A stretch of 64,000 nt of DNA from Methylococcus sp. Mc7. GTDB taxonomy: Bacteria; Pseudomonadota; Gammaproteobacteria; Methylococcales; Methylococcaceae. The position numbers were made by a program, and so were the translations under genes. The notes beneath the pieces were generated by a model, which searched no databases, was not told the DNA's origin, and saw only the letters and a program-made list of their open reading frames with translations. Positions 9,206 to 64,000 of the stretch are shown here, in pieces (position 1 is the stretch's first letter; each line of letters begins with the position of its first letter). The DNA lies in contig NZ_CP079095.1 of assembly GCF_019285515.1 (NCBI RefSeq), forward strand, positions 1,987,501-2,051,500, given 5' to 3'.

Positions 9206-9289
9206 GCCGACTCGAAGAGCAGCGAAGCTGACTCGAAGGGCGGCGAAGCCGACTCGAAGAGCGGCGGAGCTGACTCGAAGAGCAGCGGA
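9206..9289 (+). repeat. four tandem 21-bp repeats
   Basis: Four head-to-tail units of GC(C/T)GACTCGAAG(A/G)GC(A/G)GCG(A/G)A start at 9206, 9227, 9248 and 9269. The 21-bp period keeps one frame open as a TRRAAEL-like heptad, but no start or neighbouring coding pattern supports a gene. It directly follows the REP-like palindrome. Confidence 0.85.
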
Positions 9290-9354
9290 GCTGAATTTGG
9301 CGGATGCGCTGCCGCTTATCCGCCCTTGTATCTTGTTTTGCGTGGTGGTTAGCT

Positions 9355-46354: not shown

Positions 46355-49300
46355 ATGAATACCCTTCGCCCTGCTACGGAGACGCGTCCCGCCCGGCGCC
46401 TCCTCCTCGGAGTCCCGCTGCTCGCCCTGGCCGTGCTGCTGGCGCCGCAAGCGGTCTCGGCCGCGGCCAAGATCAAGATTGCCAAAGCGGCCTGGTCGGA
46501 AAAAGCCGGCGCATTGACGATCACCGGCAAAGCCAAGGGCGGAACCGGCGCCGTCGAGATCTACGACATCAATGGCCGCCGCCTGGGCAACGGCCAGGGC
46601 GGCAGTTTCGCGGTGACGCTGAACCGCCAGGACTTGGCGGGCATCCCTTGCGCGGTGCGGGTGCAATCCGGCGACACCGAGGTCATCAAGCCGGTGAAGG
46701 GTGCGCCCAAATCCTGCGCTGGCATGCCTGTCTGCAGCATCGTCAGCCCGGGCGACGGCACGGTCCTTCAGATGGGCGTGGAAACCCATTTCGAAGCCAA
46801 AGCCACGGCGAAAGCCCCGGCCGCCTTGCCGTTCAAATACGAGTGGGATTTCGGCGGCGGCGCCATGGGCTTCCCGTCCGGCACCCTGGCCCAGTCCGGT
46901 TCGGTCGGCGAACACGTGGCCTTCGTCCGCGATCACGGCGTTTATCGGGTCCGCTTCGTGGCGACCGACGCCCTGGGGCGCCGATGCGAGGATTCGATAG
47001 CCGTCAGCGTCGGCCAGGCGCCGGCCGCCCCGCCGGCGGCGGCGTCCCTCGCGGCGGCCTCGGTGCGGGCAGCCCCCAAGTTTGGCAGCGAGCTGGAGGG
47101 CAAGGCCGGCGACGTCGTGGTCCTTCCCTTCGCCCACAGCGCGGCCATGGGGCAGGGCGTGATGAACCTGGATGCGGGCAACCCCTGGCCCGGTTTTTTT
47201 CACTTGAACGCCATCGCGTATACCAAGGCGCGCCAGCCCTTGAACGTGGAAGCCGACGCCTTCGAGCTGTTCTATTCCGCCGCGGTGAATCCCGCCGATC
47301 CGGTGGGGGCGGATTCCATCAACACCACCAGCCGGAATTACCCGGTGGATGCCTCGTTCCGTGACGCCCAGATCAGGAAGACCGACATGTGGGAGGCTCA
47401 GGAAGGCTGGGAGACCACGGCGGGCTACGAGCCGTTCTGGCAGGTCGACGAGAGCACGCCGACGGTTTCGCCCTTGTGGAAGGAGCCGCCCACCATCACC
47501 AAGATATTGAACGCGGCCTTTCCCGACATGTGGGGACAGGGGGCCGATTGGACCTGGTACCTGGCCCGCAATTCGGTGCCGGACGAAGGCTATCTCACCG
47601 GCAAGTTCGAGACCCGGATGACCGGCGACCCTGCCGACAAGGACAATTTCAAGGGCGGCCTGATGCCGGGCAAGGACAATCCCTACCAAGCCAATACACC
47701 GCAGGCGTTCCCGACCCGGGAGGCGGATACCCAGGCTTTCCTGGCGCTGGGAATACCTTTGACCGACATGGACGACCAGGGCCGGGTCAATCCCTTCCCG
47801 GTGATGCGGGTGGAAGCCAGGAGCAAGTCCACCGGACAGACCGCCGCGGCCGCGGACGTCGCGTTCAATACCGCCAAGGACGTACGCTGCAGCGAATGTC
47901 ACGTCTATGGCGGCATCGGCGCCGATCCCACCGTGAAACGCTATCTGCGCCCGCAGAAGAAGGACGCCCAGGGCAATCCGATGTTCGACGGCTATGGCAA
48001 CAAGGTATTGCTGGCTGGAGAGAAGAATACCCGCGTCGAGTATTTTCCCGACTACATGAATTCCAATCCCAAGACTCTGGAAGAAAAGGAGAAGGAAGCC
48101 TTCTGGAATACCTATGCGATCCATCCCTTCATGGAGTTGCAGGACCGCACCGGCGCACTTCTGGACGATTGGGATCCCGACGGCGATGGCATCGCCGGCG
48201 AAGGAGACCATCACCCCTGGGAGAACGGCTTGCGCTACATCAAGCAGTTCAAGGCGCCCGAACCCTGCCAATGGTGCCATCAGTCCGCCTATCTGAACGA
48301 ATGCGGCTATGCCACCACCAACTGGGACGGCCTGGAATACGGCCCCTCGGAGCACCGCTTCCACGGCCGTATCCAGGTGGACGGGCAGGGCAAGGTGATC
48401 CGCGACGCTGAGGGCCGGCCGCTGATGTGGGACGACCAGGGGACGGGCAAGACCAACCCCAACTCGCTGTTCCCGGTCGTGGACAAGCAGGGCAACAAGG
48501 TTCCGATGGAGCAGAACTGCCTGAAGTGTCACGTGGGCGCCAGCCAGAAGGGCTATCACGACCCCATGTACAGCGCCGGCATCCAGTGCGCGGACTGCCA
48601 CGGCGACATGCTGGCCGTGGGCGACGTCTTCCCCAAGAAAGCCCAGGGGGATCAGCCGAGGAACGCCAAGGGCGAACTGGTCGATCCCGACAAGCTCGAC
48701 GAGCAGGGCAATCCGACGCCTGTGCATCGGGTCGACTATCTCGACCAGCCGAACTGCGGATCCTGCCATACCGGCAACGGAAACGAACCCGTGCGCAAGC
48801 TGGCCTACGATCCTGCCGACCCCGCGGCCACGCCGTTGTTGCCGGAGAATCCGCGGTTCGCCGTCAACAGCGCGAAGATCGCGTTCAATTATGTCGACTG
48901 GGACATGAACCGGGTGGACAAGAGCTACGATCTGCCCTTGTTCCGTAAGAGCCTGGACACCCACGGGAAGGTCCCTTGCGCGGCCTGCCATGGCTCCACC
49001 CATGCGATCTGGCCGATCAAGGAGCCCGGCGCCAACGAGAACGTGACCTCCCTCCAGTTGCAGGGCCATACCGGCCCCATCCTGGAATGCAACGTCTGCC
49101 ACACGGCGGATTCCTTCGCCAAGCTGGAGGACCTGGACGGCGGTCAGTACAGCGGCGACGCCAAACCCGGCATCCTGGGCGGGCCGCACAACACCCACCC
49201 GATCGACGACCCGTACTGGTGGAAGCAGGCCGATGGTGACGTCGCCAACAGCGACGGCAGTAACTACGGTGGCTGGCACAACAACTACGCCAAGCTGCCC

Positions 49301-49531
49301 GGAGCCAACGGCGAAGACCAGTGCGCGGCCTGCCACGGCAGCGACCACAAGGGCACCCGTCTGTCCAAGACGCCGGTGGACCGGGTGTTCGACTTCCGCG
49401 GCTTCGACGGCAAGAAGCTGAAGAAGGCCGGGTTCAAGGCCAAGGTCGTCAAGGTGGCCGCCGGCACGCCGATCGGCTGCGACACCTGCCATAGCCTGGA
49501 GACCAGCTTCAAGGGGGCGCCGGGGCATTAA
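46355..49531 (+). CDS. secreted nonaheme cytochrome c (paralogue 1)
   Basis: A 1058-residue protein with a signal peptide ending QAVSA-AA. Residues ~37-120 form a beta-rich module (KIKIAKAAWSEKAGALTITGKAKG), followed by a PKD-like domain (PFKYEWDFGGG; YRVRFVATDALGRRC) and a large middle region. Nine CXXCH heme sites begin at residues 512, 638, 722, 745, 801, 875, 912, 990 and 1042. Expected outside the cytoplasmic membrane as an electron carrier or redox enzyme; I recall copper-responsive surface cytochromes of this size in M. capsulatus. GGAGG lies 4 bases before the ATG. It is divergent from ccmD. The exact electron donor and acceptor are unknown. Confidence 0.88.
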   Translation: MNTLRPATETRPARRLLLGVPLLALAVLLAPQAVSAAAKIKIAKAAWSEKAGALTITGKAKGGTGAVEIYDINGRRLGNGQGGSFAVTLNRQDLAGIPCAVRVQSGDTEVIKPVKGAPKSCAGMPVCSIVSPGDGTVLQMGVETHFEAKATAKAPAALPFKYEWDFGGGAMGFPSGTLAQSGSVGEHVAFVRDHGVYRVRFVATDALGRRCEDSIAVSVGQAPAAPPAAASLAAASVRAAPKFGSELEGKAGDVVVLPFAHSAAMGQGVMNLDAGNPWPGFFHLNAIAYTKARQPLNVEADAFELFYSAAVNPADPVGADSINTTSRNYPVDASFRDAQIRKTDMWEAQEGWETTAGYEPFWQVDESTPTVSPLWKEPPTITKILNAAFPDMWGQGADWTWYLARNSVPDEGYLTGKFETRMTGDPADKDNFKGGLMPGKDNPYQANTPQAFPTREADTQAFLALGIPLTDMDDQGRVNPFPVMRVEARSKSTGQTAAAADVAFNTAKDVRCSECHVYGGIGADPTVKRYLRPQKKDAQGNPMFDGYGNKVLLAGEKNTRVEYFPDYMNSNPKTLEEKEKEAFWNTYAIHPFMELQDRTGALLDDWDPDGDGIAGEGDHHPWENGLRYIKQFKAPEPCQWCHQSAYLNECGYATTNWDGLEYGPSEHRFHGRIQVDGQGKVIRDAEGRPLMWDDQGTGKTNPNSLFPVVDKQGNKVPMEQNCLKCHVGASQKGYHDPMYSAGIQCADCHGDMLAVGDVFPKKAQGDQPRNAKGELVDPDKLDEQGNPTPVHRVDYLDQPNCGSCHTGNGNEPVRKLAYDPADPAATPLLPENPRFAVNSAKIAFNYVDWDMNRVDKSYDLPLFRKSLDTHGKVPCAACHGSTHAIWPIKEPGANENVTSLQLQGHTGPILECNVCHTADSFAKLEDLDGGQYSGDAKPGILGGPHNTHPIDDPYWWKQADGDVANSDGSNYGGWHNNYAKLPGANGEDQCAACHGSDHKGTRLSKTPVDRVFDFRGFDGKKLKKAGFKAKVVKVAAGTPIGCDTCHSLETSFKGAPGH

Positions 49532-49561
49532 AATCCACCGGCGATTCGATTCCAGGTCAAT

Positions 49562-49589
49562 AGCGGGGCAGTGATGCCCCGCTTGTCTT
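49562..49589 (+). terminator. intrinsic terminator after cytochrome 1
   Basis: GCGGGGCA/TGCCCCGC stem with GTGA loop, followed by TTGTCTT, 31 bp after the stop. The terminator after cytochrome 2 uses the same stem sequence. Confidence 0.75.
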
Positions 49590-49700
49590 GCGGACCTCTC
49601 CCATCCTTCGTTGCGATTCGCGAGACGGAACAGCCGGCAATCCTAGAACAAGCAGTTGGATGAGTGTGAGCAATTTCAAACCCAAGTCCACCGTGGTTGC

Positions 49701-49780
49701 ACCCTCACCCCTACCCCTCCCCCAGTGGGAGAGGGGTTCTGCTCCCTTCTCCCCGCGGGAGAAGGGCCAGGGATGAGGGT
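49701..49780. repeat. GC-rich composite hairpin repeat
   Basis: Two hairpins (CCCCTCCCCC-AGT-GGGAGAGGGG and CCCTTCTCCC-CGC-GGGAGAAGGG) are nested in outer CCCTCA/TGAGGG arms. It is related to the repeat at 23368. The rest of 49532-49848 holds only the terminator above and no gene. Confidence 0.65.
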
Positions 49781-49848
49781 TAGCGGCCTTTCATACTCCC
49801 CGCAACTGCTGGATTTAGGACTACAGGTTTTTGTAGCACGACCCGGCC

Positions 49849-50145
49849 TCAGTTCGGCGCGAGCCGCTTTCTTGTCCAATTGGGATCGCGGCGACAATCC
49901 AATACCGCCATGACCAGGACGGTTTCCTCGATGAGCCGATAATAGACGGCAAACGGAAATCGCTTGGCAATGAGCCTGTGATAGCCGAACACGATGCGAT
50001 GCATGCCCCCGTAAAAAACCAGGGAGTCGATATCCGCATAGAGCGAGTCGAGAAAGTACGGTCCCAGACCCGGCGAACGCCCCTCGTAGAAGCGATACCC
50101 TTCTTCGAGATCGCTTGCGGCAGCGGCGAGGATTTTTACTTGCAC
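49849..50145 (-). CDS. ParE/RelE-type toxin
   Basis: A 98-residue toxin-like protein: VKILAAAASDLEEGYRFYEGRSPGLGPYFLDSLYADIDSL, HRIVFGYHRLIAKRFPFAVYYRLIEETVLVMAVLDCRRDP. This is the ParE/RelE pattern. The GTG at 50145 is chosen because it overlaps the antitoxin end by 10 bp; longer starts are inside the antitoxin gene. Confidence 0.85.
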   Translation of the reverse strand: MQVKILAAAASDLEEGYRFYEGRSPGLGPYFLDSLYADIDSLVFYGGMHRIVFGYHRLIAKRFPFAVYYRLIEETVLVMAVLDCRRDPNWTRKRLAPN

Positions 50146-50363
50146 GCGACGTTTCGGCGGATTCTTTCCTTGGCCTCTTCCCAATCGGACACGCCCATTG
50201 TCCCCCCGGCCAAAGCCGCTTCACGATCCCGCAGGATGGGCTCATGCCAATGGGGGGAATCGAAGGACGGGTCTTCTTGAGTCAGATCCGCCCAGAGGCG
50301 TTCCATGAGTTCGAGTTTTTGCGCGTGGGTAAGTCGCGATAAAGAGAATTCCGGGGCTTCCAT
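50136..50363 (-). CDS. addiction-module antitoxin (RHH/TIGR02574-like)
   Basis: A 75-residue acidic protein: LSRLTHAQKLELMERLWADLTQEDP, PHWHEPILRDREAALAGGTMGVSDWEEAKERIRRNV. It matches the small 'putative addiction module component' proteins paired with ParE-like toxins. The ATG at 50363 starts MEAPEFSL. Confidence 0.82.
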   Translation of the reverse strand: MEAPEFSLSRLTHAQKLELMERLWADLTQEDPSFDSPHWHEPILRDREAALAGGTMGVSDWEEAKERIRRNVACK

Positions 50364-50681
50364 CGCTCTAGCGGTCGCCAATAAAAGAAACGGACAGGAA
50401 TACAGTCTTGCATGGGGAGGCCGGATTCTCAACCGCCTCCCCGCTTTCCAGCCGGACCTGCGGAAAGTGGAGATTCGGCAAATCCCGGAGGTGGCCGGCG
50501 AGATGCCATACGGACCGCCGGGCGTTGCTCACCGCCAACGTTGTGTATTCTCAACCCCCCTGAGCGGTACTCAGCCAAGGAGGATAGTCCCTCCGGGCTA
50601 TCGGTCCCTCCCCACGGCGGGTTTGCGGGGTACCCAGGTTTCGATCCGGGAAGCGGCCTGTGTCATCCGTTTGGGGCGGGC
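50364..50681. other. gene-free stretch between antitoxin and haloperoxidase genes
   Basis: No gene is supported. A perfect 8-bp inverted repeat GGGGAGGC/GCCTCCCC occurs at 50414-50442 and could terminate the haloperoxidase transcript read on the minus strand. Confidence 0.5.
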
Positions 50682-53297
50682 CTACCGGTCTGCCGCCCCG
50701 CCGAAATATTCCATCGCCCTGGCTAAGGCGCCGCGCCCGACCTGTTGACCTATCCTGCGTCCGGCGAAGTCATCGGCCTCGACGTGGATGCCGCCCCACA
50801 GCCTGGACTGGCCGGCCTGGTCGGCGGCGTCGAAGTAGCTGGCCCATTGCAGCCGCAGGTCGACGGAAGGTCCGCGCTCGTGGATGAGATAGTCGTCTTT
50901 TCGTGCGGTGAACTCCATCAGTCCGCCTGGAAAGTAGGGGCTGCCGGTGAGCGCCGCCAGCACTTCGGCAGCCGCCCGGCTGAAGGTGCTGTGGCCCGAA
51001 ATGTAGCCGGGGAAGGCGGGTGTGACGAAAGTCCTGCGCTGATAAGGAACCCAGGCGGTGCCCAGGCCCCAGCGCACCCCGCTGACCTGGGTTTGAGGAT
51101 CGGCCGGGCTGCCCGGCCATGACAGCAGCGCGACGTCGCCGATCCTGCCGCCGGCTTCGGCGGAGACCAGTTCCGCATGGCGTCCGCCCGGAGCCGCGGT
51201 TTCCGGGGTGACGAGTTCGACCAGGCCGGGCTTGAGCGGCAGTCCCCGCGGGCTGTAGGAGGGCAGGGACGGGTCGGACGACTGACCGTTCCTGGCCATA
51301 TAGCGGATCATCGTGATCGGGCGCACGCCGTCGTATTTCCGCTTGCTGCCCCAGCAAGCGATGGCCGCGTCGTGAAGCGCGCCGTTGAGGGCGAAATAGG
51401 TCTTCACGTCCCATTCCAGCGGGGCCAGTTCCGGGCCGCCGCCGCCGATACGGCGTTGGAAGCCGGGCGAGTCGGCAACGGCGTTGGCGATGGTGTTCCA
51501 GTGGCCGGGCGGGGTCTCCGAATGCGGTCCGTCCGCCCAGAATTCGGCGACCACCCGCCCGAAATCGCCGCGCGGGACGACCTGCGGCGGGTAGGGCTGG
51601 CCGGTCGCCGGATTGACGGGATGGCCGGTTCCCTCGTTCGAGCCGAGCGGGTTGTTGCCCAGGGATGCGGGCGAGACGTCCATCGTCGCCCCGTCGTCCG
51701 CCGCCAGTTGGCTGGCCAGCTCGATCACGCGGAGCGCCTGCGCCTTGTATTCCGCGTCTCCCTCGCCGCCGAGCCGCGGCGGCGGGCCGGGATCGTAAAG
51801 CGCTTCCGCCGTGGCGATATCCGGGAGAGCGAAGGGGATCACTCCGCCCCATTGCGATCCGATGAACGTCTGGACCTTGCCGGGCAACGGAATTCCGTTC
51901 TGGGAAACGGTCTTGTCCAGGGCGAGCGGCTGCCAGCGATTGGGATCGAGGTGGTAGCCGGGGTCCGAGGGATCGGTGAGGTCTATCCCCGGCAGCTTCA
52001 CGACCAGGGGTTTGTTCACCGGCGTATAGGTGGGGTCCTGGTAGTTGGCGGCTTCGCCGGCGCCGTCCCGGTCGCCGAAGGCGAGCACCGCCGCGGCGAT
52101 CCGGTTTCCGACCGAAGCAGGCGTGTTTCCGGTGGTGTCGGTGAGGCCGGGGTCCAGGCCCAGCCGGGCCATGCGGGAACCGAAGCGGGCCTGCGAAGCC
52201 GCAGAGCCCAGGGCGAGTTTTTCCGAGTAGCGCCGGGACAGGACCCGGTAGGCCGCGTAGCTGATGGCAATCCTGCGGTCATGCTCGATGTCCGCCGACG
52301 CCGGATGTTCAGCCGTGAGATAGGGCTTCGACCCGCCGCCATAGGCCGTCCAGGCGTCGTACATCGCGAGCGAGAGATGGAAAAGGTTGCGTGCGTGGAC
52401 GCCGGGACGGGGATTGTCCAGCCGGATGGCATCCAGGATTTCCTCGTTCCATTGCCGCGCGACCGACCAATGACGCTGCGGACGGCTGTCGCAATAGGGG
52501 GCCGCAAAATAGTTGCCGCGCTTGCGGCAGTCGGCGGAGAGGCGGTCGGCCCGGTTGACCGCGGTGCAAGCGCTGCAATGCGCCTGGGCGACCAGACAGG
52601 CGCCGGGTTCCCCGCCGGGCAGGCTGGCGCAGAGGCCGGGAAAAGCGGTGCGTCCGGCGATCCCTTCACAGCGGCGGGCAATGCGGCTCTCGGCTTTTCG
52701 TTCCGTGTCCCGCAGGCGCGGAGAGTCGACGCCGATGCAGGCTTCCAGATCGGCCGCCGTACTCGCTTGGTTCCCCTTCAGGCGTTTTCGGACGCAGCGG
52801 TGATATTCGGCCAGTTCGGTCCTGACGAAGGTGGCGAAAGACTGCGCGAGCGTCAGTTGGCAGCGCGCCGTGGCGCGGTCTCCGCCGCCCGAATCCAGCA
52901 CGTCGGCAAGCTCGGCGCCGAACAGGGCGGTCATCTCGGATGCCTCGGAAAATGCGGCGTTGACGTCCTCCGGATTCGCCGGACCGAATGCCGGCGTCTC
53001 GCCGCATTCCCGTGCCGCGGCGGCGAGGGTTGCGTCGCGGGCGTGCTCGATGTCGGGATTCCGGGCGGCAAGGCAGGCGCCGATTCCGTCCGCCGCGAGT
53101 TTTCCCCGTACCGAGGCTTTGACGCAATGGAGCGCGGCGCGGGCCGCCGCGCTGGCCACGCCGGCCCCGGCTTTCTGGAGTGCCGCGATGCAGCGCTGCT
53201 GGGCGGCCGCCGGAGGCGCGTCCGCGGCAGTCGCCGTGTTTCCGGCCAATAACAAAAGGATGAAGATGAGTGCTGCGGGGGAAGTAAAGGGATGCAT
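50682..53297 (-). CDS. secreted vanadium-dependent haloperoxidase-like protein (PAP2 fold)
   Basis: An 871-residue protein with a signal peptide (FTSPAALIFILLLLAGNTATA). Residues ~25-270 are an unusual Cys-containing helical region (CSACTAVNRADRLSADCRKR). The C-terminal half has the vanadate/PAP2 site: KRKYDGVRPITMIRY, GYISGHSTFSRAAAEVL and SRLWGGIHVEADD supply Lys/Arg, Ser-Gly-His and Arg...His. It would oxidise halides with peroxide, or act as a phosphatase. Typical vanadium haloperoxidases of this type are 450-650 residues, so the N-terminal extension is extra. It is monocistronic. Confidence 0.85.
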   Translation of the reverse strand: MHPFTSPAALIFILLLLAGNTATAADAPPAAAQQRCIAALQKAGAGVASAAARAALHCVKASVRGKLAADGIGACLAARNPDIEHARDATLAAAARECGETPAFGPANPEDVNAAFSEASEMTALFGAELADVLDSGGGDRATARCQLTLAQSFATFVRTELAEYHRCVRKRLKGNQASTAADLEACIGVDSPRLRDTERKAESRIARRCEGIAGRTAFPGLCASLPGGEPGACLVAQAHCSACTAVNRADRLSADCRKRGNYFAAPYCDSRPQRHWSVARQWNEEILDAIRLDNPRPGVHARNLFHLSLAMYDAWTAYGGGSKPYLTAEHPASADIEHDRRIAISYAAYRVLSRRYSEKLALGSAASQARFGSRMARLGLDPGLTDTTGNTPASVGNRIAAAVLAFGDRDGAGEAANYQDPTYTPVNKPLVVKLPGIDLTDPSDPGYHLDPNRWQPLALDKTVSQNGIPLPGKVQTFIGSQWGGVIPFALPDIATAEALYDPGPPPRLGGEGDAEYKAQALRVIELASQLAADDGATMDVSPASLGNNPLGSNEGTGHPVNPATGQPYPPQVVPRGDFGRVVAEFWADGPHSETPPGHWNTIANAVADSPGFQRRIGGGGPELAPLEWDVKTYFALNGALHDAAIACWGSKRKYDGVRPITMIRYMARNGQSSDPSLPSYSPRGLPLKPGLVELVTPETAAPGGRHAELVSAEAGGRIGDVALLSWPGSPADPQTQVSGVRWGLGTAWVPYQRRTFVTPAFPGYISGHSTFSRAAAEVLAALTGSPYFPGGLMEFTARKDDYLIHERGPSVDLRLQWASYFDAADQAGQSRLWGGIHVEADDFAGRRIGQQVGRGALARAMEYFGGAADR

Positions 53298-53532
53298 GGG
53301 GACGGTCGGAGGAAGGCGGGGACAGGGCCGTTCAACGTACTTCCCGCCAAGCAGGGACTGTGCCGAGCGTTGATGCGTCGGCGAGTATGGCGCGTCCTCA
53401 CGCTCCGACCGTCGTCGAGGAGCCGGTGAGGTTGTGTTTGGATTGAAATCCGGGCGAGGGATTTCGAGCGATGTGGCATGTCACGCAAGTCGTGCGTGAA
53501 ATTGCCGGCCCCCATGTCGTTCCGGTATTCGA

Positions 53533-54132
53533 TCAGCCCGTTCCCTGTTCCCCTTCACCCTGCTGGCCCGCCGTGGACGCCCAAAGATCGGCCAGGGAGA
53601 ACGCCAGTTCGGCGAAAGGCGGAGCGCGCACCTCGTCGGCTTCCTGCCAGGCGCCTTCCAGCAGCCAATGGCCGTCGTGGAGGCGGAAGACCTCCAGCGT
53701 GTGCAGATCCGGCTCGACCAGCCACAGCCATTGCACGGCTTGTCCGGCGTAGATCGGCATCTTGACCACGCGGTCGATGCGCGCCGTGCCGGGGGAGAGC
53801 ACCTCGCACACCCAATCCGGCGCCAGGGTGAAATAGGCCTCGTCGGGCAAGGCCGGCATCCGCTCGCGCCGCCAGCCGGCCAGGTCGGGCACCAGGATGT
53901 GCGGTCCCAGATGCAATTCGGGTTCGAACAATATCCACCACCCGCCGGGACCGCCACGCCCCTGATGATAGGGTGGAACGATTTCACCGGTCAGAATGGA
54001 GGTGGCCTGCGCGTGTCTAGGCGCGGGGCGGGGCTGGGTGACGAGCTGGCCGTTCAGGATTTCACCGATGACGTGCTCGGGCAGATCGAACAGGTCGCGG
54101 TATTCGGCCAGGCGTTCGGCGGGGCGGCTCAT
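53533..54132 (-). CDS. Uma2-family (DUF820) putative endonuclease, copy A
   Basis: A 199-residue PD-(D/E)XK-fold protein: ILNGQLVTQPRPAPRHA, HILVPDLAGWRRERMP, FTLAPDWVCEVLSPGTARIDRVVKMPIYA carry the Asp, Glu and Lys of the predicted active site. It is the most diverged of four tandem copies; differences cluster in the middle. Its C-terminus runs past LADLWA for 14 extra residues because the repeat boundary falls there. The start MSRPAERLAEY (54132) has GGAAG 6-7 bases upstream. Role unknown. Confidence 0.82.
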   Translation of the reverse strand: MSRPAERLAEYRDLFDLPEHVIGEILNGQLVTQPRPAPRHAQATSILTGEIVPPYHQGRGGPGGWWILFEPELHLGPHILVPDLAGWRRERMPALPDEAYFTLAPDWVCEVLSPGTARIDRVVKMPIYAGQAVQWLWLVEPDLHTLEVFRLHDGHWLLEGAWQEADEVRAPPFAELAFSLADLWASTAGQQGEGEQGTG

Positions 54133-54207
54133 GGAAAGACTTCCGGGTTGGGCGACGCCGTCCATCATGGCGATTTTCCGCCGCCCGGTCTACCTCATCG
54201 CCATCGT

Positions 54208-54765
54208 CTAAGCCCAAAGATCGGCCAGGGAGAAAACCAGTTCGGCGAAAGGCAGAGCGCGCACCTCATCGGCTTCCTGCCAGGCGCCTTCCAGCAGCCA
54301 ATGGCCGTCGTGGAGGCGGAAGACCTCCAGCGTGTGCAGATCCGGCTCGACCAGCCACAGCCATTGCACGGCTTGTCCGGCGTAGATCGGCATCTTGACC
54401 ACGCGGTCGATGCGCGCCGTGCCGGGGGAGAGCACCTCGCACACCCAATCCGGCGCCAGGGTGAAATAGGCCTCGTCGGGCAAGGCCGGCATCCGCTCGC
54501 GTCGCCAGCCGGCCAGGTCGGGCACCAGGATGTGCGGTCCCAGATGCATTTCGGGTTCGTCGAGGATCCACCAGCCGCCGGGACCACCGCGGCCTTGGTC
54601 ATAAGGTCCGATCAGTTCACCGCCGACGATCGACGATGCGCGGGCGTGTTTCGGCGCGGGGCGGGGTTGTGTAATGACTTGGCCGTTCAGGATTTCGCCG
54701 ATGACGTGCTCGGGTAGGTCGAACAGGTCGCGGTATTCGGCCAGGCGTTCGGCGGGGCGGCTCAT
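54208..54765 (-). CDS. Uma2-family putative endonuclease, copy B
   Basis: A 185-residue copy ending LADLWA. The active-site residues (PDLAGWRRE; CEVLSPGT...DRVVKMPIY) are conserved. It differs from copy A mainly between residues 35 and 75 (VITQPRPAPKHARASSIVGGELIGPYDQG). Identical in protein sequence to copy C. Confidence 0.82.
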   Translation of the reverse strand: MSRPAERLAEYRDLFDLPEHVIGEILNGQVITQPRPAPKHARASSIVGGELIGPYDQGRGGPGGWWILDEPEMHLGPHILVPDLAGWRRERMPALPDEAYFTLAPDWVCEVLSPGTARIDRVVKMPIYAGQAVQWLWLVEPDLHTLEVFRLHDGHWLLEGAWQEADEVRALPFAELVFSLADLWA

Positions 54766-54840
54766 GGAAAGACTTCCGGGCTGGGCGACGCCGTCCATCA
54801 TGGCGATTTTCCGCCGCCCGGTCTACCTCATCGCCATCGT

Positions 54841-55398
54841 CTAAGCCCAAAGATCGGCCAGGGAGAAAACCAGTTCGGCGAAAGGCAGAGCGCGCACCTC
54901 ATCGGCTTCCTGCCAGGCGCCTTCCAGCAGCCAATGGCCGTCGTGGAGGCGGAAGACCTCCAGCGTGTGCAGATCCGGCTCGACCAGCCACAGCCATTGC
55001 ACGGCTTGTCCGGCGTAGATCGGCATCTTGACCACGCGGTCGATGCGCGCCGTGCCGGGGGAGAGCACCTCGCACACCCAATCCGGCGCCAGGGTGAAAT
55101 AGGCCTCGTCGGGCAAGGCCGGCATCCGCTCGCGTCGCCAGCCGGCCAGGTCGGGCACCAGGATGTGCGGTCCCAGATGCATTTCGGGTTCGTCGAGGAT
55201 CCACCAGCCGCCGGGACCACCGCGGCCTTGGTCATAAGGTCCGATCAGTTCACCGCCGACGATCGACGATGCGCGGGCGTGTTTCGGCGCGGGGCGGGGT
55301 TGTGTAATGACTTGGCCGTTCAGGATTTCGCCGATGACGTGCTCGGGTAGGTCGAACAGGTCGCGGTATTCGGCCAGGCGTTCGGCGGGGCGGCTCAT
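54841..55398 (-). CDS. Uma2-family putative endonuclease, copy C
   Basis: A 185-residue copy whose protein is identical to copy B. Same start context, same 39-bp spacer beyond the MMDG codons. Recent duplication or gene conversion is inferred. Confidence 0.82.
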   Translation of the reverse strand: MSRPAERLAEYRDLFDLPEHVIGEILNGQVITQPRPAPKHARASSIVGGELIGPYDQGRGGPGGWWILDEPEMHLGPHILVPDLAGWRRERMPALPDEAYFTLAPDWVCEVLSPGTARIDRVVKMPIYAGQAVQWLWLVEPDLHTLEVFRLHDGHWLLEGAWQEADEVRALPFAELVFSLADLWA

Positions 55399-55473
55399 GG
55401 AAAGACTTCCGGGCTGGGCGACGCCGTCCATCATGGCGATTTTCCGCCGCCCGGTCTACCTCATCGCCATCGT

Positions 55474-56031
55474 CTAAGCCCAAAGATCGGCCAGGGAGAA
55501 AACCAGTTCGGCGAAAGGCAGAGCGCGCACCTCATCGGCTTCCTGCCAGGCGCCTTCCAGCAGCCAATGGCCGTCGTGGAGGCGGAAGACCTCCAGCGTG
55601 TGCAGATCCGGCTCGACCAGCCACAGCCATTGCACGGCTTGTCCGGCGTAGATCGGCATCTTGACCACGCGGTCGATGCGCGCCGTGCCGGGGGAGAGCA
55701 CCTCGCACACCCAATCCGGCGCCAGGGTGAAATAGGCCTCGTCGGGCAAGGCCGGCATCCGCTCGCGTCGCCAGCCGGCCAGGTCGGGCACCAGGATGTG
55801 CGGTCCCAGATGCATTTCGGGTTCGTCGAGGATCCACCAGCCGCCGGGACCACCGCGGCCTTGGTCATAAGGTCCGATCAGTTCACCGCCGACGATCGAC
55901 GATGCGCGGGCGTGTTTCGGCGCGGGGCGGGGTTGTGTAATGACTTGGCCGTTCAGGATTTCGCCGATGACGTGCTCGGGTAGGTCGAACAGGTCGCGGT
56001 ATTCGGCCAGGCGTTCGGCGGGGCGGCTCAT
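55474..56031 (-). CDS. Uma2-family putative endonuclease, copy D
   Basis: A 185-residue copy identical to B and C from MSRPAERLAEY to LADLWA. The upstream bases differ (TCCTCCC instead of TCTTTCC before the ATG), marking the outer end of the repeat array. As the promoter-proximal copy it may carry the array's native promoter. Confidence 0.82.
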   Translation of the reverse strand: MSRPAERLAEYRDLFDLPEHVIGEILNGQVITQPRPAPKHARASSIVGGELIGPYDQGRGGPGGWWILDEPEMHLGPHILVPDLAGWRRERMPALPDEAYFTLAPDWVCEVLSPGTARIDRVVKMPIYAGQAVQWLWLVEPDLHTLEVFRLHDGHWLLEGAWQEADEVRALPFAELVFSLADLWA

Positions 56032-56431
56032 GGGAGGACTTCCGGGTTGGGCGACGCCGTCCATCATGGCGATTTTCCGCCGCCGGGTCCACATCCGGCA
56101 TGGCTGGGCGAGCAACTTCCAGTGCCGTCGGGATGCCCGCGGTTTCTGCCATCCGGCGTGTCAAATGACTTAGTACCCCCGTGAAAACCCGGAGCGGCAA
56201 TTTTTCCGGGCTGACCAAGGCTATATCTATCAGAGGGTTAGGTGTTGGCCCGATCTCTGCTTTATCAGGGGACTCGTCCTGCGCGGCAGCGCGGGACAGT
56301 TCGCCATCGGTAGATCGTGCAAACCATTGCGGATCCGGCGCGCCGACCATGGATATGCATGCAGGCAATATGGGGCAAGCCGCTTAGGGGCGCTTCGGCG
56401 CCCCGTTTTTTTGTCCGGTCGAAACGCATGA
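56032..56431. other. gene-free stretch with a terminator
   Basis: Between Uma2 copy D and the remnant at 56432. A 68-codon plus-strand frame (56181-56387, ending MDMHAGNMGQAA) stops exactly at the terminator hairpin below, so a small gene or gene tail is possible but unproven. Confidence 0.35.
56386..56412 (+). terminator. strong intrinsic terminator
   Basis: GGGGCGC-TTCG-GCGCCCC (56387-56404), a tetraloop hairpin followed by G and seven T. It ends whatever plus-strand transcript precedes it. Confidence 0.85.
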
Positions 56432-56626
56432 TCCCAGGCGCCAGCTCAAACGGCACAAGAGTTCAGGGTGATCGACGTGATAAACGTGCCCCAGTACACC
56501 TACCTCGAAGTGAAGCAGGACAGCCGATCCCAGTGGATCGCCGGGCCGTCCGTGGAAGTCAGGAAAGGCGACGTCGTCCGCTTCGACGGTGGCGTGGAGA
56601 TGAAGGATTTCCACCTTTACGCTTAG
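56432..56626 (+). pseudogene. NrfJ-like C-terminal fragment
   Basis: An open frame without a clear start (GTG at 56468 possible). It reads VIDVINVPQYTYLEVKQ, WIAGPSVEVRKGDVVRF and MKDFHLYA. The pattern resembles small periplasmic NrfJ-type proteins found beside multiheme cytochromes (V-x-D-V-I-D-V-P-x-Y-T-Y-L; K-G-D; M-K-N-F-H), but the ending that normally follows is missing. Low confidence. Confidence 0.35.
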
Positions 56627-56746
56627 TAATTGGGCAAGCCGGTCCTGCTCCCGGCTATTGCGTGATATCCCGCTTAGTTGTGGGCAATCACACGGATTGT
56701 ATCGGCGGTAAATTCTTATCAGATTGTTTTAATCGGGATTTTTTTC

Positions 56747-56761
56747 TGGCTCGATTGTTGC
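56747..56761 (+). promoter_or_regulatory. sigma-54-type promoter of multiheme cytochrome 2
   Basis: The same TGGCTCGATTGTTGC as at 46271, at the same distance (about 70 bp) from the ATG. Conservation alone is weak evidence because the whole leader is duplicated. Confidence 0.5.
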
Positions 56762-56830
56762 CCCTTCTCGTTTCGGCCGCGCCGTCTTTCCCACGGCGCC
56801 TCGCACGACAACAAGAATCCTGGAGGAACC

Positions 56831-57715
56831 ATGAATACCCTTCGCCCTGCTACGGAGACGCGTCCCGCCCGGCGCCTCCTCCTCGGAGTCCCGCTGCTCG
56901 CCCTGGCCGTGCTGCTGGCGCCGCAAGCGGTCTCGGCCGCGGCCAAGATCAAGATTGCCAAAGCGGCCTGGTCGGAAAAGGCCGGCACGCTGACGATCAC
57001 CGGCAAAGCCAAGGGCGGAACCGGCGCCGTCGAGATCTACGACATCAATGGCCGCCGCCTGGGCAGCGGCCAGGGCGGCAGTTTCGCGGTGACGCTGAAC
57101 CGCCAGGACCTGGCGGGCATCCCTTGCGCGGTGCGGGTGCAATCCGGCGACACCGAGGTCATCAAGCCGGTGAAGGGCGCGCCCAAGTCCTGCGCTGGCG
57201 CTCCCGCCTGCGGCATCGTCAGCCCGGGCGACGGCACGGTCCTTCAGATGGGCGTGGAAACCCATTTCGAAGCCACCGCCACGGCCAAGGACCCGGCCGC
57301 CTTGCCGTTCAAATACGAGTGGGATTTCGGCGGCGGCGCCATGGGCGAACTCATCGCCGGCAGCTATCCGCCCGCCTACAAGCGGCCGGATGCCCTGTCC
57401 ACCAGGGTCCAGTTCGTCCGCAACGACAGCCGTTACCGGGTGAGGTTCGTCGCCACCGACGCCAAAGGGCGGCGCTGCGAGGACAGCGTCGAGGTGATGG
57501 TGGGTAATCCGCCATCGGGGCTGCCGTCCAAGGTGTCCGAGCAGCCGCCGCCGGCGCTGGGCGGCGAGCTGGATGGCGCGGCGGGCGACGTGGTGGTGCT
57601 GCCGTTCGAGGAATGGACGTTCCAGAACTCCAGCGACATGCGCTATAACCCCAACGGCTACAGCTCCTTCTCGCCTACCGTTAACAACGTGCGGGCCTAC
57701 GCCTTCAGGAAAGAC
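56831..57715 (+). pseudogene. multiheme cytochrome c paralogue 2, 5' part (interrupted by IS66)
   Basis: 295 codons: signal peptide and N-terminal modules nearly identical to paralogue 1 up to GGGAMG (57346), then a diverged PKD-like part (YRVRFVATDAKGRRCEDSVEVMVG). The frame reaches AYAFRKD at 57715, where the IS66 element begins. All heme sites lie in the 3' part, so this fragment alone would be a heme-free secreted protein. Confidence 0.88.
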
Positions 57716-57794
57716 GTAAGCGTCCGGCCGAGCGCATTCTTTCGCGGCCTTAGCGCGCGAGGCACAGTATCGCCGGATTCCTACAGAGGAGGAT

Positions 57795-58097
57795 ATGGCG
57801 ATGACGAGGCAAGAGCGTGAAGTTTTTTGGCTGGGGCTGTTGGAACAGCAGGCGGCGAGCGGATTGTCGGCGCGGGCTTGGTGCGTTCAAAAGGCGATTG
57901 GCTATGCGACGTTCATGTACTGGCGCCGGCGCTTGGTGCAGCGGACTAAGGCGGCGCCGCTGACACTGATCCGCGTGATCGAGGAGGACGCGGTCAGTGA
58001 CGGTTTGTGGCTGTTGGTGGGCGGTGCACGCATCGAGGTGAAGGGCGGGTTCGATGCCGCCTTGCTGAAGCAGGTCGTGGCGGCATTGGTGTCGTGA
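57795..58097 (+). CDS. tnpA: IS66 accessory protein TnpA
   Basis: A 100-residue IS66 OrfA-type protein (FWLGLLEQQAASGLSARAWCVQKAIGYATFMYWRRRL), a helix-turn-helix-like small protein needed for IS66 transposition. Its stop overlaps the tnpB start (TGATG arrangement, 1 bp). Confidence 0.88.
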   Translation: MAMTRQEREVFWLGLLEQQAASGLSARAWCVQKAIGYATFMYWRRRLVQRTKAAPLTLIRVIEEDAVSDGLWLLVGGARIEVKGGFDAALLKQVVAALVS

Positions 58098-58438
58098 TGC
58101 TGGCGACGCTGCTGAGTGCGACGACGGTGTATGTGGTTGCCGAACCCTGCGATCTGCGCAAGTCCATCGATGGTTTGGCGCTGGCGGTGGAGAGCAGCCT
58201 GGGGCATTCGCCGTTGTCGGGTTCGGTGTTCGTGTTCTTCAACCGGGGCCGGGACAAGGTGAAGCTGTTGTGGTGGGATCGTCATGGTTTCTGGCTGGCC
58301 TACAAGCGGCTGGAGAAAGGCCGCTTCCGCAATCCGGTTCAGGGGACGATTTCGCGCTCGGACCTGCTGCTGTTGCTGGAAGGCGTGGACTTGTCGGTGG
58401 TGCGTTTGCGGGAGGTTCGGGCCGGCCGGGTCGGGTGA
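58097..58438 (+). CDS. tnpB: IS66 accessory protein TnpB (Orf2)
   Basis: A 113-residue IS66 Orf2 protein: VYVVAEPCDLRKSIDGLALAVESSLGHSPLSGSVFVFFNRGRDKVKLLWWDRHGFWLAYKRLEKGRF is the diagnostic block. Complete. Confidence 0.93.
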   Translation: MLATLLSATTVYVVAEPCDLRKSIDGLALAVESSLGHSPLSGSVFVFFNRGRDKVKLLWWDRHGFWLAYKRLEKGRFRNPVQGTISRSDLLLLLEGVDLSVVRLREVRAGRVG

Positions 58439-58497
58439 TCGAAAAAGTGGCTGAAACCCGCATCAGAGCTGGGCTTTCGGGTGGTCTACCGGGTATC

Positions 58498-60006
58498 ATG
58501 GCAGCCATGAATGCCGCCGCTCTCGCCGAAGAAAATCGTACGCTGAAGGCCACCCTGGCCCAGCGCGAGGCGCGCATCGAACGGCTGGAATTCGACCTGG
58601 CACAGCTGAAGAAGCTGCTGTTCGGCGCTCGCTCCGAGAAGCTCAAAACGCTCCCCGACAGTGAACAACTGCCGCTGTCGGCGGAAGTGCCCGAGGACGC
58701 CCCCGTCGCCAGTCCGGTGGAGTTCAAGACGGTGGTGCAATCGCCGGTCAAGAATCCGCCCAAACGCACCGCGCTGCCGGAGCATCTGCCGCGCGAGATC
58801 GTGGTGTTGCCGCTGTCGGCGGAAGATCGCCGGTGTCCTGAATGCGGCGAAGAGCGGCCGGTGATCGGCTACGAAAGTTCCGAGCGGCTGGACTACCTAC
58901 CGGCCACCCTCAAGGTGGTCGAGACCCGCCGGGAAAAATGCGCCTGTTCCAAGTGCCAGGGGCAGCTGACCACGGTGCCGGCGAAGCCTGAGATTATCGA
59001 AGGGGGCATCCCGCTGCCGGGTCTTCTGGCGCATCTGCTGATGGCCAAATACGGCTATCACCTGCCCCTCTACCGCATCGAGCAAATTTTTGCCCACCAG
59101 GGTGTGCCCATTGCCCGCACCACGTTGTGCGACTGGGTCATCCAGAGCGGCTGGCAACTGAAACCCTTGGCTGAGCGGATGCTGGCGTTGCTCAAGCAGC
59201 AGCCGGTGATCTTCTCGGACGACACCACTGTGGCCGTGCAGGACCGCGGCAAGACGCGGGAGACGCGGTTTTGGGTCTACGCCGGCCACTCCCCGCCGAT
59301 CGTCGTCTACGATCACACCGAAACCCGGGCGGGCAAACATCCCAAGGCCAAACTGGAAGGCTACCGCGGCTACCTGCAGGCGGACGCCTATGCCGGTTAC
59401 GACCAGATCTTCGCCGCAGGCAAGGTCCTGGAAGTGGCCTGCTGGGCGCATGCGCGCCGCAAGTTCTTCGACATCGCCCGCCAAGCGGAGGCTGGCAAGC
59501 GCATCAGCGCCCACGAGGCCTTGGAATTCATCGGCCGGCTCTATGCCATCGAACGGGAAGCCAAGGAACAGCAACTCGACGCCGAAGGCATCCGCAAGCT
59601 GCGGCAGCAACAGGCGCGGCCGATCCTGGCCGAGTTCAAGGCCTGGCTCGAAGACCGGCTGCGCCAGTTAGCGCCCAAGACGCCCACGGCCCAAGCCATC
59701 GGCTATGCCCTCAAGAACTGGCCGGCGCTGGAGCGCTACACCGAAGACGGCCGCCTGGAAATCGACAACAACCGGAGCGAACGGGCCATCCGCCCCCTCA
59801 CCATCGGCCGCAAGAATTGGCTGTTTCTCGGCTCGCCCAAGGGCGGCCAGGTCGCCGCCACGGTGTTCAGCCTGATCCAGACCTGCAAGGAGCTGGGCAT
59901 CAATCCGGAGGCCTATCTGAAGGATGTCCTCACCCGCCTGCCTTCCACCAAGCAGAAGGACATCGACAGCCTGCTACCTCACAATTGCAAGCTGCCCGGG
60001 GCGTAA
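58498..60006 (+). CDS. tnpC: IS66 transposase TnpC
   Basis: A 502-residue DDE transposase. A leucine-zipper N-terminus (AALAEENRTLKATLAQREARIERLEFDLAQLKKLLFG), a zinc-binding region (RRCPECGEERPVIG; KCACSKC) and the catalytic domain (PVIFSDDTTVAVQD; GYLQADAYAGYDQIF; DNNRSERAIRPLTIGRKNWLFLGSPKGG) are all intact. ATG 58498 or 58507 is the likely start. Confidence 0.93.
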   Translation: MAAMNAAALAEENRTLKATLAQREARIERLEFDLAQLKKLLFGARSEKLKTLPDSEQLPLSAEVPEDAPVASPVEFKTVVQSPVKNPPKRTALPEHLPREIVVLPLSAEDRRCPECGEERPVIGYESSERLDYLPATLKVVETRREKCACSKCQGQLTTVPAKPEIIEGGIPLPGLLAHLLMAKYGYHLPLYRIEQIFAHQGVPIARTTLCDWVIQSGWQLKPLAERMLALLKQQPVIFSDDTTVAVQDRGKTRETRFWVYAGHSPPIVVYDHTETRAGKHPKAKLEGYRGYLQADAYAGYDQIFAAGKVLEVACWAHARRKFFDIARQAEAGKRISAHEALEFIGRLYAIEREAKEQQLDAEGIRKLRQQQARPILAEFKAWLEDRLRQLAPKTPTAQAIGYALKNWPALERYTEDGRLEIDNNRSERAIRPLTIGRKNWLFLGSPKGGQVAATVFSLIQTCKELGINPEAYLKDVLTRLPSTKQKDIDSLLPHNCKLPGA

Positions 60007-60075
60007 CGAGCCGCCACCTAACCGTTCGCCACTGAGACCACAAGACCGGGCACCGCCGAACGCTTACGGAAAGAC

Positions 60076-62448
60076 CGGCTGCCGGTGTTTCTCGACGCCG
60101 AGGCGGTGGAGCTTCGCTATTCGGCGGCCTCGAATCCTTCCGATCCGGTCGGCGCGGATTCCATCAATTCCACCAGCTACAACTGGCCCACCACGGCGTC
60201 CCTGCTGGACGCCGCCTTGAAAAAGACCGACGCCTGGGAAATCATCGCCCGTCCGGATGCGCAAAAGGCCGAAGGCTATTTCGCCTGTTCCTGGATGATG
60301 ACCGGTTACTTCGGGGCTTATGGTTGCGGCGACGCCCTGGGGTTGCCGACCCCCGACGAGGGCTACTTCAAGGCGCAAAACCCTGTCCACGCCCACAGCA
60401 CCGCCGTTCCGGACTCGCAGCACAGCGACCCGAACACCGACTTGGGGCACGGCGCTTACATGCCGGGCCGGGAGAACCCCTATTTCGCTAATACCCCGCA
60501 GCCGTTCTCCAAATTCGTTGCCAGCGAAAAGTCCAGGAAGGAGGGTGTGGCGGACAAGCCGGCGGCGTGGTTCGAGGCCAATATGCTGCCCTATACCGAC
60601 ACCGACGACCAGGGCCGGGTCAATCCGTTCTCGCTGGTGCGCGTCGAAGCCGTGGCCAAGGGGAGCAACAGCGTCCTGGCCAAGACGGACGGCGTGGTCA
60701 GCGCTGGGCGCGACTTCCACTGCCGCGAGTGTCACGCCAAGGGCAAGGTCGCCGCCAACCCAAATGCGCCCCACACCCGTGCCGCATTCGCCTCCAGCGC
60801 TTGGGGCAGGTATGCCGTTGAGCGAGACAAGAACAAACCTGGCGCGCGGTACTACGTTCCGGAAGATAAGATCCCGGAGAAACCGCAGTTTTTCGACGTC
60901 GCTGATTTTGACGGCGATCCCAATAGCATCGCCGACCAGGAATATGCGGCGGCGCTCAATTATTCGAGCATGCACCAGTTCTATGACGCGATTGCCTTCC
61001 TCAACGAGATGATGTACTCAATAGGCAAGACCTATGTTTCCGAAGAAGACAAGGCCAATCCCCGTAACATAGCCAAGGATACCCCGCGTCCTTGTTATGG
61101 TTGCCATGCCACCGCCTTGAGGTTCGAACCGTTCCAAAACCCTTGGTGGGACGAGGAAGGCTTCAAGGTCGATGATCCAATCTACTCGCCGAATTACTCC
61201 ATCTCCATGCACCGCTTCCATGCGGAACTCCGGTGGAGCGCGGATAAGACCGACATCGTCCGGGATGGGAAAGGTGCCTTCGCGCGCTGGGATTGGAAGA
61301 CCCTGGGGCCGAACAACTCCACCAAGACCGGCAGTCTGTTCCCGATCTTCGACGACCAGGGTCGGCAGTTGCCGATGGAGCAGAATTGCCTGCGCTGCCA
61401 CGCCGGGCACCGGGAGCAGCTTTACCGCGACCGCATGTTCACCGCGGGCGTGACCTGCTACGACTGCCATGGCGACATGCTGGCGGTAGGTGAGGCTTTC
61501 CCCAAGAACTACCTTCAGAACAAAGCCAAGCTGGGTTCGACCGAGCGTGACGATTACCGGGTGCCCTGGTTCGACGAACCCGACTGCGGCTCCTGCCACA
61601 TCGGTGACGGCAACCGTGGCAAGGGAGGAGTCGACGGCTTCTTCAGCGAGGGCGTGTTGAGGACGGCCTTCGATCCCAATGACTGGTCGGCCACCACCCG
61701 GCCCGTCGACCGCAACAACCCGAACGCCGTGCGTTTCGCGGTGGCGCCGCTGAAAAATTACCAGGCTAGTTTCCCGACGGACTTCTCTTATGCCTTGGAT
61801 CAGACTACCGGAAAATTCCTCAGCAAAACGGTCGATACCAAGGTTGATGCCCCGCTGTACCGCTTCGGCAAGGACCGCCACGGCAATGTCGCCTGCGCGG
61901 CCTGCCACGGCGCGGCGCACGCGGTCTGGCCGAACCGCGATCCGAGTTCGAACGACAACGTCACCGCGCTGCAGCTCCAGGGCCACACCGGCACCATCCT
62001 CGAATGCAATGTCTGCCACACCGCGGATTCGTTCGCCAAGAAGGAGGATCTGGACGGCGGCCAGTACAGCGGCGACGCCAAGGCAGGCATCCTGGGCGGA
62101 CCGCACGACATGCATCCGGTCAACGACCCGTACTGGTGGAAAGGCGCCCAGGGCGACGGAGCCAACAGCGACGGCACCACCTACGGCGGTTGGCACAACG
62201 ACTACGCCAAGCTGCCGGGCATGAAAGGGGAAGACCAGTGCGCGGCCTGCCACGGCAACGACCACAAGGGCACCCGTCTGTCCAAGACGCCGGTGGACCG
62301 GGTGTTCGACTTCCGGGGCTTCAACGCCAAGAAGCTGAAGAAGGCCGGGTTCAAGTCGAAGGTCGTGAAAGTGGCCGCCGGCACGCCGATCGGCTGCGAC
62401 ACCTGCCACAGCCTGGAGACCAGCTTCATCGGGTCGCCCGGACACTGA
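60076..62448 (+). pseudogene. multiheme cytochrome c paralogue 2, 3' part
   Basis: Continues the frame of the 5' part after one target-duplication copy (RKD-RLPVFLDAEAVELRYSAA). The joined protein would be 1085 residues with nine CXXCH sites (CRECH, CYGCH, CLRCH, CYDCH, CGSCH, CAACH, CNVCH, CAACH, CDTCH), the first at joined residue 511 as in paralogue 1. The last ~160 residues are nearly identical to paralogue 1. Alone it lacks a signal peptide. Confidence 0.9.
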
Positions 62449-62928
62449 CGGCGTTTCAAGGAATCGGCGCCAGGGAGGGCGGCGATGGGCGGGGCACAGA
62501 GTGCCCCGCTTTTTTGCTCGTCAGTTTTTCGTGCGGACGTATGCCCAGGGGCCATTCGCTTCCGGACGGTCTGCGTCATTTGACTCACAAAGCATGGGAT
62601 TTCACTCGCGCTCCAGCGGTAGATGCCGCGTGGCGGCCGTTCGATTTACTCGATCTGGCGACCGCCCTCGATTTCCCCAGGCTCCATCCCCCATTCGCTG
62701 ATTATGAAAAAGTGAATCGAAATCAATCGAGTGGTTCTGGCGTGGAGTTCTCGGCGTGAGGATGTCGGGAGGAGACCTCGCCCCATCGAACTGCAGAAAT
62801 ACAGCCGGGTACGGGTCTTGCCTCATGCCCTTGGGTCATCGCAATGGCGCCCCGCGTTTTGCGGGAGCCGCTCCTGCGGGATTGGAAGAATCGAAAACAA
62901 GAAAAGCGCGTCATTAGAGGGTAGGTAA
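62449..62928. other. gene-free stretch before cytochrome 3
   Basis: Holds the terminator at 62489-62515. A weak sigma-54-like match GGGTAC-N5-TTGC lies at 62807-62821. No gene is supported. Confidence 0.5.
62489..62515 (+). terminator. intrinsic terminator after cytochrome 2
   Basis: A 9-bp perfect stem GCGGGGCAC/GTGCCCCGC, AGA loop, then T6, 41 bp after the stop. Confidence 0.92.
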
Positions 62929-64000
62929 ATGAACTCGAAATATCTTCGTAAACCCGGCGGGCCGCTGGGCGTTGCGACAGGTGTCGCGGCGCTGGTGCTC
63001 GCCCTTTGCGGCGGAGGGGCGCAGGCCGCTTCCGTCTCCGGTTCGGCCAAGGTCGATCCCGGGCTGGGCAAGGTGAACGTCAAGGGCAAGGCCGCGGGCC
63101 TTGCGCCAGGCTCGTGGGTTTCGATCTACGATGCCGACAGCAACATGCTTCTTTACACCGCCAAGACCGACGGCAAACGGAAGTTCAAGGTCACACTGCA
63201 GAACGGCGGTGTGCCCTGCCGGCTGCGCCTGGAAACCGGCGACGGCGGCAAGGTCTTGATTCCGGTGGGCGGCGCCGATGCTTCGTGCAAGAAGGCGGCG
63301 GCCTGTTCCATCCAGAGCCCGGCGGGCGACGTGGAAATCAGCGAAGGCCAGTCGGTCGAGTTCGCCGCCGCGGCCAAGGCGAAGAAGAAGGTGACGCTGG
63401 ATTACCTTTGGACCGTGAGCGATGGTTCGGAACCATCCAAGACCTCGAATTTCTCGCATCGGTTCAATCACGCCGGCCAGTACCGGGTGATGCTGAACGT
63501 GGCCGATTCCACCGGCAACCAGTGCGCGGACGACGTGGTCGTCCGGGTGGTGGCGCCGAACGCCAATCCTTATCCCAAGGTTTCCGAGCGGCCGGCGCCC
63601 GCGACCGCCGAAGCATTGAACGCGGCGGACGGAGCCTACGTCGTGATGCCGTTCGAGGAAACCGGCATGCAGGGCGGCAGCCAGGTCACGCTGCCGTACA
63701 ACCCCCTCATTCCCTACAACACGCTGAACGCGCAGGTGTTCAGGAAGGTGAAACAGAAGCCGGCGGTCGTCGATCCCAGCGAGCTCGACGTCTTCTACTC
63801 GGCGGCTTCCAACCCGAAAGACCCGGTGGGGAGCGACTCCATCAACTCGACCAGCCAGAACCGGTTTTCGACCGGGGAATCCGGTGCCAACTGGGATCCC
63901 GCCCAGACCACCGGCAGCCAGACCGTCCTGATCGGCGGCCGCAACTTCGCCGAAGCCACGTTGCGCAAGACCGAGATGTGGGACAAGATCGACCAGCCCA
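62929..64000 (+). CDS. multiheme cytochrome c paralogue 3, 5' part (runs off the window)
   Basis: 357 codons of an open frame cut by the window end. The signal peptide ends GGAQA-AS. The same module order follows: beta module (VSGSAKVDPGLGKVNVKGKAAG), PKD-like domain (LDYLWTVSDGSEPSKTSNF; YRVMLNVADSTGNQCADD) and the shared DVFYSAASNPKDPVGSDSINSTSQN block. Heme sites are expected beyond the window. Its leader differs from paralogues 1 and 2. GAGGGTAGG precedes the ATG. Confidence 0.85.
   Translation, partial: MNSKYLRKPGGPLGVATGVAALVLALCGGGAQAASVSGSAKVDPGLGKVNVKGKAAGLAPGSWVSIYDADSNMLLYTAKTDGKRKFKVTLQNGGVPCRLRLETGDGGKVLIPVGGADASCKKAAACSIQSPAGDVEISEGQSVEFAAAAKAKKKVTLDYLWTVSDGSEPSKTSNFSHRFNHAGQYRVMLNVADSTGNQCADDVVVRVVAPNANPYPKVSERPAPATAEALNAADGAYVVMPFEETGMQGGSQVTLPYNPLIPYNTLNAQVFRKVKQKPAVVDPSELDVFYSAASNPKDPVGSDSINSTSQNRFSTGESGANWDPAQTTGSQTVLIGGRNFAEATLRKTEMWDKIDQP

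Follow-up and report, generated by a model that had tools for sequence, protein, structure and literature searches.

At positions 53533–56031 of the 64-kb window, that is, of the whole stretch of DNA that was analysed, the minus strand carries four intact Uma2 (PF05685) genes in head-to-tail order. The host is a methanotrophic Methylococcus, of the same genus as M. capsulatus Texas; its chromosome is closed (one contig of 4,003,396 bp), and the assembly gives an array copy number of four. The genes, designated copies A (53533–54132), B (54208–54765), C (54841–55398), and D (55474–56031), sit in four tandem direct-repeat units (53572–56103, minus strand) that start at 53572, 54205, 54838, and 55471, with a spacing of 633/633/633. 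A previous sequence-only reading of this DNA had described four intact tandem Uma2 genes, three of them in 633-bp repeats; the intact genes were borne out and the register proved exact, but it includes all four copies. Units B and C are identical over 633/633 bp. Unit D retains the ancestral flank on its upstream side, and it is at this end of the unit that all 14 of its differences from B fall. Unit A differs from B at 52 positions, which are clustered within the gene. The second ATG (MSRPAERL), which is preceded by GGAAG, was taken as the probable start codon since this start is conserved in relatives and the longer upstream reading frame is frameshifted in M. capsulatus Texas. Read from this codon, the 185-residue proteins of B, C, and D are all the same, whereas the sequence-only reading had called those of B and C identical and that of D nearly so. 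Copy A encodes 199 residues and is distinguished from B–D by a replaced internal segment and by a longer C-terminal tail, an ancestral stretch of ~14 residues that was lost by B–D at the repeat junction. Thus, A is indeed diverged internally, as had been claimed, but its 3′ end differs as well.

The two protein types scored 77.3 bits (A) and 74.2 bits against the Pfam Uma2 profile (cut-off, 27), and the putative active site H … PD … EXX … K proposed for Uma2 by Feder and Bujnicki (PMC551604) is present in both A and B (His-40, Pro-82–Asp-83, Glu-110, and Lys-124). The AF2 model (mean pLDDT, 93) has the PD-(D/E)XK fold, as in the solved Uma2 structures 6okh, 3ot2, 9y1l, and 1wdj, to which Foldseek matched it with query-normalised TM scores of 0.66–0.85. 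Nuclease activity is a prediction, both for the array proteins and in the papers considered here. A search of NCBIfam with these proteins gave no match, and a search of PHROGs matched only a family of unknown function.

Several other features surround the array. Copy A is followed immediately, on the same strand, by the gene for an 871-aa protein (50682–53297, minus strand) that has DUF6851 and VCPO second-domain matches and resembles vanadium haloperoxidases, and a likely toxin–antitoxin pair follows at 49849–50432 (minus strand), consisting of an Unstab_antitox match (47.9 bits) and then a ParE-like ORF just under the Pfam cut-off (21 vs 23). On the other side, an IS66-type element adjoins the array (57795–60006, plus strand; TnpB, 58007–58438; transposase, 58270–60006), and a secreted-type ORF (56678–57820) overlaps the start of this element, which may have truncated it. 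A perfect GC-rich stem-loop (56387–56404, plus strand) followed by seven T lies in the conserved flank upstream of copy D and may terminate an unannotated small RNA; Rfam gave no match in 49000–64000. A 21-bp tandem repeat of 4.1 copies is located at 9209–9294. Among the ORFs of at least 80 aa within 53533–56031, only Uma2 genes were recognised, with no antitoxin-like partner.

Exactly one Uma2 copy is present at the syntenic site, with the same flanks, in four sister genomes (G001–G004), indicating that the array represents a local amplification; the expectation that copy number varies was thus upheld, with the variation lying between species. A single-copy state is the simplest ancestor on this distribution, while an old array that collapsed in several lineages may be the alternative. 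The three repeat junctions (A/B, 54187–54208; B/C, 54820–54841; C/D, 55453–55474; all minus strand) have one 22-bp filler sequence in common, which points to one founding duplication followed by unequal crossing-over. A search for the source of the filler, allowing up to 2 mismatches, gave no occurrence elsewhere in the genome. We infer the following order of events: an in situ duplication of one ancestral Uma2 (PD-(D/E)XK-like) nuclease gene in this Methylococcus lineage would have created a single unique junction, and later rounds of unequal crossing-over would have multiplied it. The array might alternatively reflect dosage, with B, C, and D being kept since more protein is useful, an explanation that could apply only to the three identical copies. 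Their intactness, common orientation, 75-bp spacing, and GGAAG ribosome-binding-like site before each gene suit this explanation, but a very recent duplication predicts the identity of B, C, and D equally well and the four sister species have a single copy, and we regard selection for dosage as very unlikely.

The difference between A and the other copies is concentrated in a tract of codons 29–73 of A (53914–54048, minus strand). The exchanged cassette spans the first long helix (αA), immediately past the conserved active-site histidine; αA is a single predicted helix in the AF2 model (residues 37–55, numbering without Met). The cassette proper (residues 41–58, minus strand) is of the Q42/H56 type in A (53959–54012) and of the R42/D56 type in B (54592–54645), C (55225–55278), and D (55858–55911). 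Between A and B, dS was 0.26 in codons 1–31, 1.80 in codons 32–68, and 0.04 downstream, and the corresponding dN values were 0.03, 0.18, and 0.02. Since dN and dS jump together in the block, the signal in A is best read as recombination of an old allele, and the dN/dS ratio of A versus B–D, which the sequence-only reading had put forward as a check, is a misleading test here. The cassette of A matches that of one sister species (G003) and the cassette of B–D matches that of another (G001), whereas the flanks group A with B. In the quartet of A, B, G003, and G001, all 30 informative sites in codons 29–73 placed A with G003 and B with G001; conversely, outside these codons, 12 sites placed A with B and G003 with G001, with 1 conflicting site. 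This clustering was significant in a runs test (p about 1e-5). Judging from these site patterns, the block in A is an exchange of an old allele by recombination and not ordinary divergence.

Two other histories were considered for A. A single continuous history was ruled out by the four-taxon test. Simply faster evolution of the helix was also rejected, because orthologue pairs of the same cassette class displayed no helix excess and because synonymous and amino-acid changes jump together. A third cassette type is common to G002 and G004. At a second Methylococcus Uma2 locus, two types were detected, one in G001 and G003 and the other in G000, G002, and G004, a split that may follow species relationships.

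The generality of this pattern was examined in a survey set of 373 distinct Uma2 genes. Adjacent pairs were included if they were non-identical and less than 20% divergent overall (n = 15, with identical neighbours such as B and C excluded), and a pair was scored as peaking on αA when its most divergent 18-codon window started within H−4 to H+6, where H is the conserved His. Divergence peaked on αA in 12 of the 15 pairs (binomial 4e-12 for uniform placement, a value that is too small since the pairs are not all independent, four being from one genus and two of these four, G027 and G029, being orthologous arrays). The pairs came from Methylococcus, Methylotetracoccus, two Sedimenticola MAGs, a Burkholderiales MAG, and several further genera, and represent several bacterial families. 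The three exceptions were an Acidobacteria MAG pair with the same cassette, one peak at H+16, and one start at H−7. In an earlier set of 14 pairs, the mean nucleotide divergence was 0.37–0.44 at H+0 to H+17 and mostly 0.02–0.12 outside the helix, except for shoulders beside the block. Close single-copy orthologue pairs fell into two modes, having either the same cassette class without a helix excess or a wholly different class, which argues that the helix is not simply fast-evolving. Helix-centred divergence was not found in Nostoc and Planktothrix plasmid orthologues, so we do not claim the pattern for the whole Uma2 family. Two further observations concern the mobility of these segments. Identical helix cassettes (pS 0) are present in L045, L046, and L050 on backbones with a synonymous divergence of 0.30, which suggests recent transfer between species. 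In addition, two Planktothrix plasmid Uma2 alleles (L412 and L411) show no difference until the helix is reached, and their divergence lies mid-gene instead; block exchange may therefore affect other parts of Uma2 as well.

G027 and G029 have syntenic two-gene arrays (93.6% over 1.27 kb). From H+24 to H+98, 7/7 informative sites paired the copies within a genome, whereas about 20 sites from H+1 to H+21 paired the orthologues across species. Orthology was also favoured by the sites that precede the helix and by those at the extreme 3′ end. These groupings indicate that the scaffold 3′ of the helix was converted within each genome, while the helix alleles outlasted the species split. The active homogenisation first suggested for the Methylococcus array is thereby supported, most clearly in these orthologous arrays. 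Recombination keeps the copies alike, and the αA-encoding segment is the exception, being swapped as a block between divergent alleles.

Could these dynamics be mostly neutral or selfish? Duplication and gene conversion would then homogenise the copies, an imported divergent αA would be shielded by its local mismatch, and the array and the identity of B, C, and D would be transient and without benefit. The single copy at the array site in four sister species is compatible with this, as is a cassette dN/dS well below 1, which gives no direct sign of positive selection; moreover, Feder and Bujnicki (PMC551604) saw sporadic duplications in the family and considered that it might be a selfish element. 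However, arrays in unrelated genera have their divergent block at one and the same helix, and helix alleles survive across species as coherent wholes, coupled residues included. We consider a mostly neutral or selfish account unlikely.

The coupled residues lie within the cassette. Among 218 genes of the GGPGGWW subfamily, no two positions of the protein covaried more strongly than residues 42 and 56 (R42–D56; z 11.4). All distinct cassettes with R42 had D56 (69/69), and all those with E42 had R56 (5/5), which is a charge swap. Among closely similar cassettes, residue 56 differed in 70% of cases if residue 42 differed and in 10% if it was the same, and RD and non-RD pairs coexist on several near-identical backbone clusters. 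The 42/56 coupling was absent from the top covarying pairs in the wider non-GGPGGWW set. Since cassettes move as blocks, part of the covariation could be inherited linkage. The two residues are 14 residues apart on one predicted helix, which corresponds to about 21 Å; a contact within one chain is thus unlikely, and the contact probably lies between two copies of the protein. When antiparallel registers were scanned, the best register was the predicted one, although beyond the 42/56 pair the result was not significant (permutation p about 0.15–0.20). A periodicity test for variation on one helical face was likewise not significant (p 0.14).

The genetic evidence is strong. As to function, we tentatively propose, with confidence falling a little short of even, that αA is a homodimer-specificity helix and that the arrays encode mutually insulated predicted nucleases. 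αA would then serve as a self-recognition surface, with two antiparallel αA helices packed about a twofold axis close to residue 49 so that residue 42 faces residue 56 of the other subunit, and pairing partners would change with the cassette. B, C, and D (R42/D56) would constitute one homodimer pool and A (Q42/H56) a separate one, such that the array would yield several mutually insulated nucleases on one scaffold, with a possible role in anti-phage defence or selfish spread. Insulation leaves the identity of B, C, and D unexplained. The broader proposal, in which αA is a short exchangeable self-recognition code found across species, with selection maintaining its diversity, and each array is a library of orthogonal homodimers that have one homogenised scaffold in common, is more doubtful.

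A different role for αA would be to bind something else, such as a phage inhibitor or trigger, a DNA target, or a partner protein, with an arms race or frequency-dependent selection keeping old alleles, the arrays storing several specificities, and the 42/56 coupling having another structural cause. Cassette types common to several species are what balancing selection predicts, and the helix begins at the putative active-site His (PMC551604). The PADLOC profile PDC-S03 matched both A (E 2e-16) and B (E 5e-17), PDC-S03 itself being no more than a candidate for phage defence; the open-licence literature searched yielded no paper that names it. On a Planktothrix agardhii plasmid (L411, 1–2826), a Uma2 gene is located between DUF1156, HsdR-N-terminal-like, and DUF499 genes and has the look of a defence cluster. 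The profile match and this restriction-like context are weak hints of defence. Set against them, no defence neighbours were recognised around the array in this window, and a strict charge coupling between residues ~21 Å apart in one chain does not follow from an external partner alone. We therefore judge an external partner of αA to be rather unlikely. If the proposal of a self-recognition code is correct, it would provide the first specificity rule for a large family of unknown role. Should a self-recognition helix be all that distinguishes the copies, the redundancy of Uma2 would be merely apparent, and the question of whether A pairs with B would open a way to function. The arrays from unrelated genera also offer a clear case of concerted evolution sparing one helix.

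The array itself is ordinary, since Uma2 tandem arrays were reported already in 2005 and 2009. Feder and Bujnicki (2005; PMC551604) defined the family with its migrated catalytic Lys, noted tandem duplications, including a four-gene Uma2 array in Crocosphaera watsonii WH8501, and proposed a selfish role; they also put the family at more than 2% of Gloeobacter genes. The Methylococcus array (Uma2/COG4636/DUF820) belongs to the same family as the Crocosphaera array and has the same H and PD-EXX-K residues and tandem arrangement, while the parts of that paper considered here contain no mention of helix-cassette exchange, of cassettes shared across species, or of 42/56 coupling. Makarova et al. 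(2009; PMC2701414) described cassettes of adjacent COG4636 paralogues, rarely with an antitoxin, as possible solo toxins. Both cases are runs of adjacent Uma2 paralogues; no antitoxin-like partner was recognised in the Methylococcus array, and the relevant sections of that paper contain no analysis of the differences between paralogues. Neither paper, in the parts that deal with Uma2, gives a known function or a reason for the many near-copies per genome. No report of helix-cassette exchange or of 42/56 coupling in Uma2 was found in the open-licence literature. In the HsdS subunits of type I restriction systems, a conserved scaffold carries exchangeable blocks that set specificity. The Uma2 array works in a similar way, combining a conserved scaffold with exchangeable blocks. 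Unlike HsdS, to which it is not homologous, it has a single helix swapped in a small nuclease, and this helix may set dimer rather than DNA specificity.
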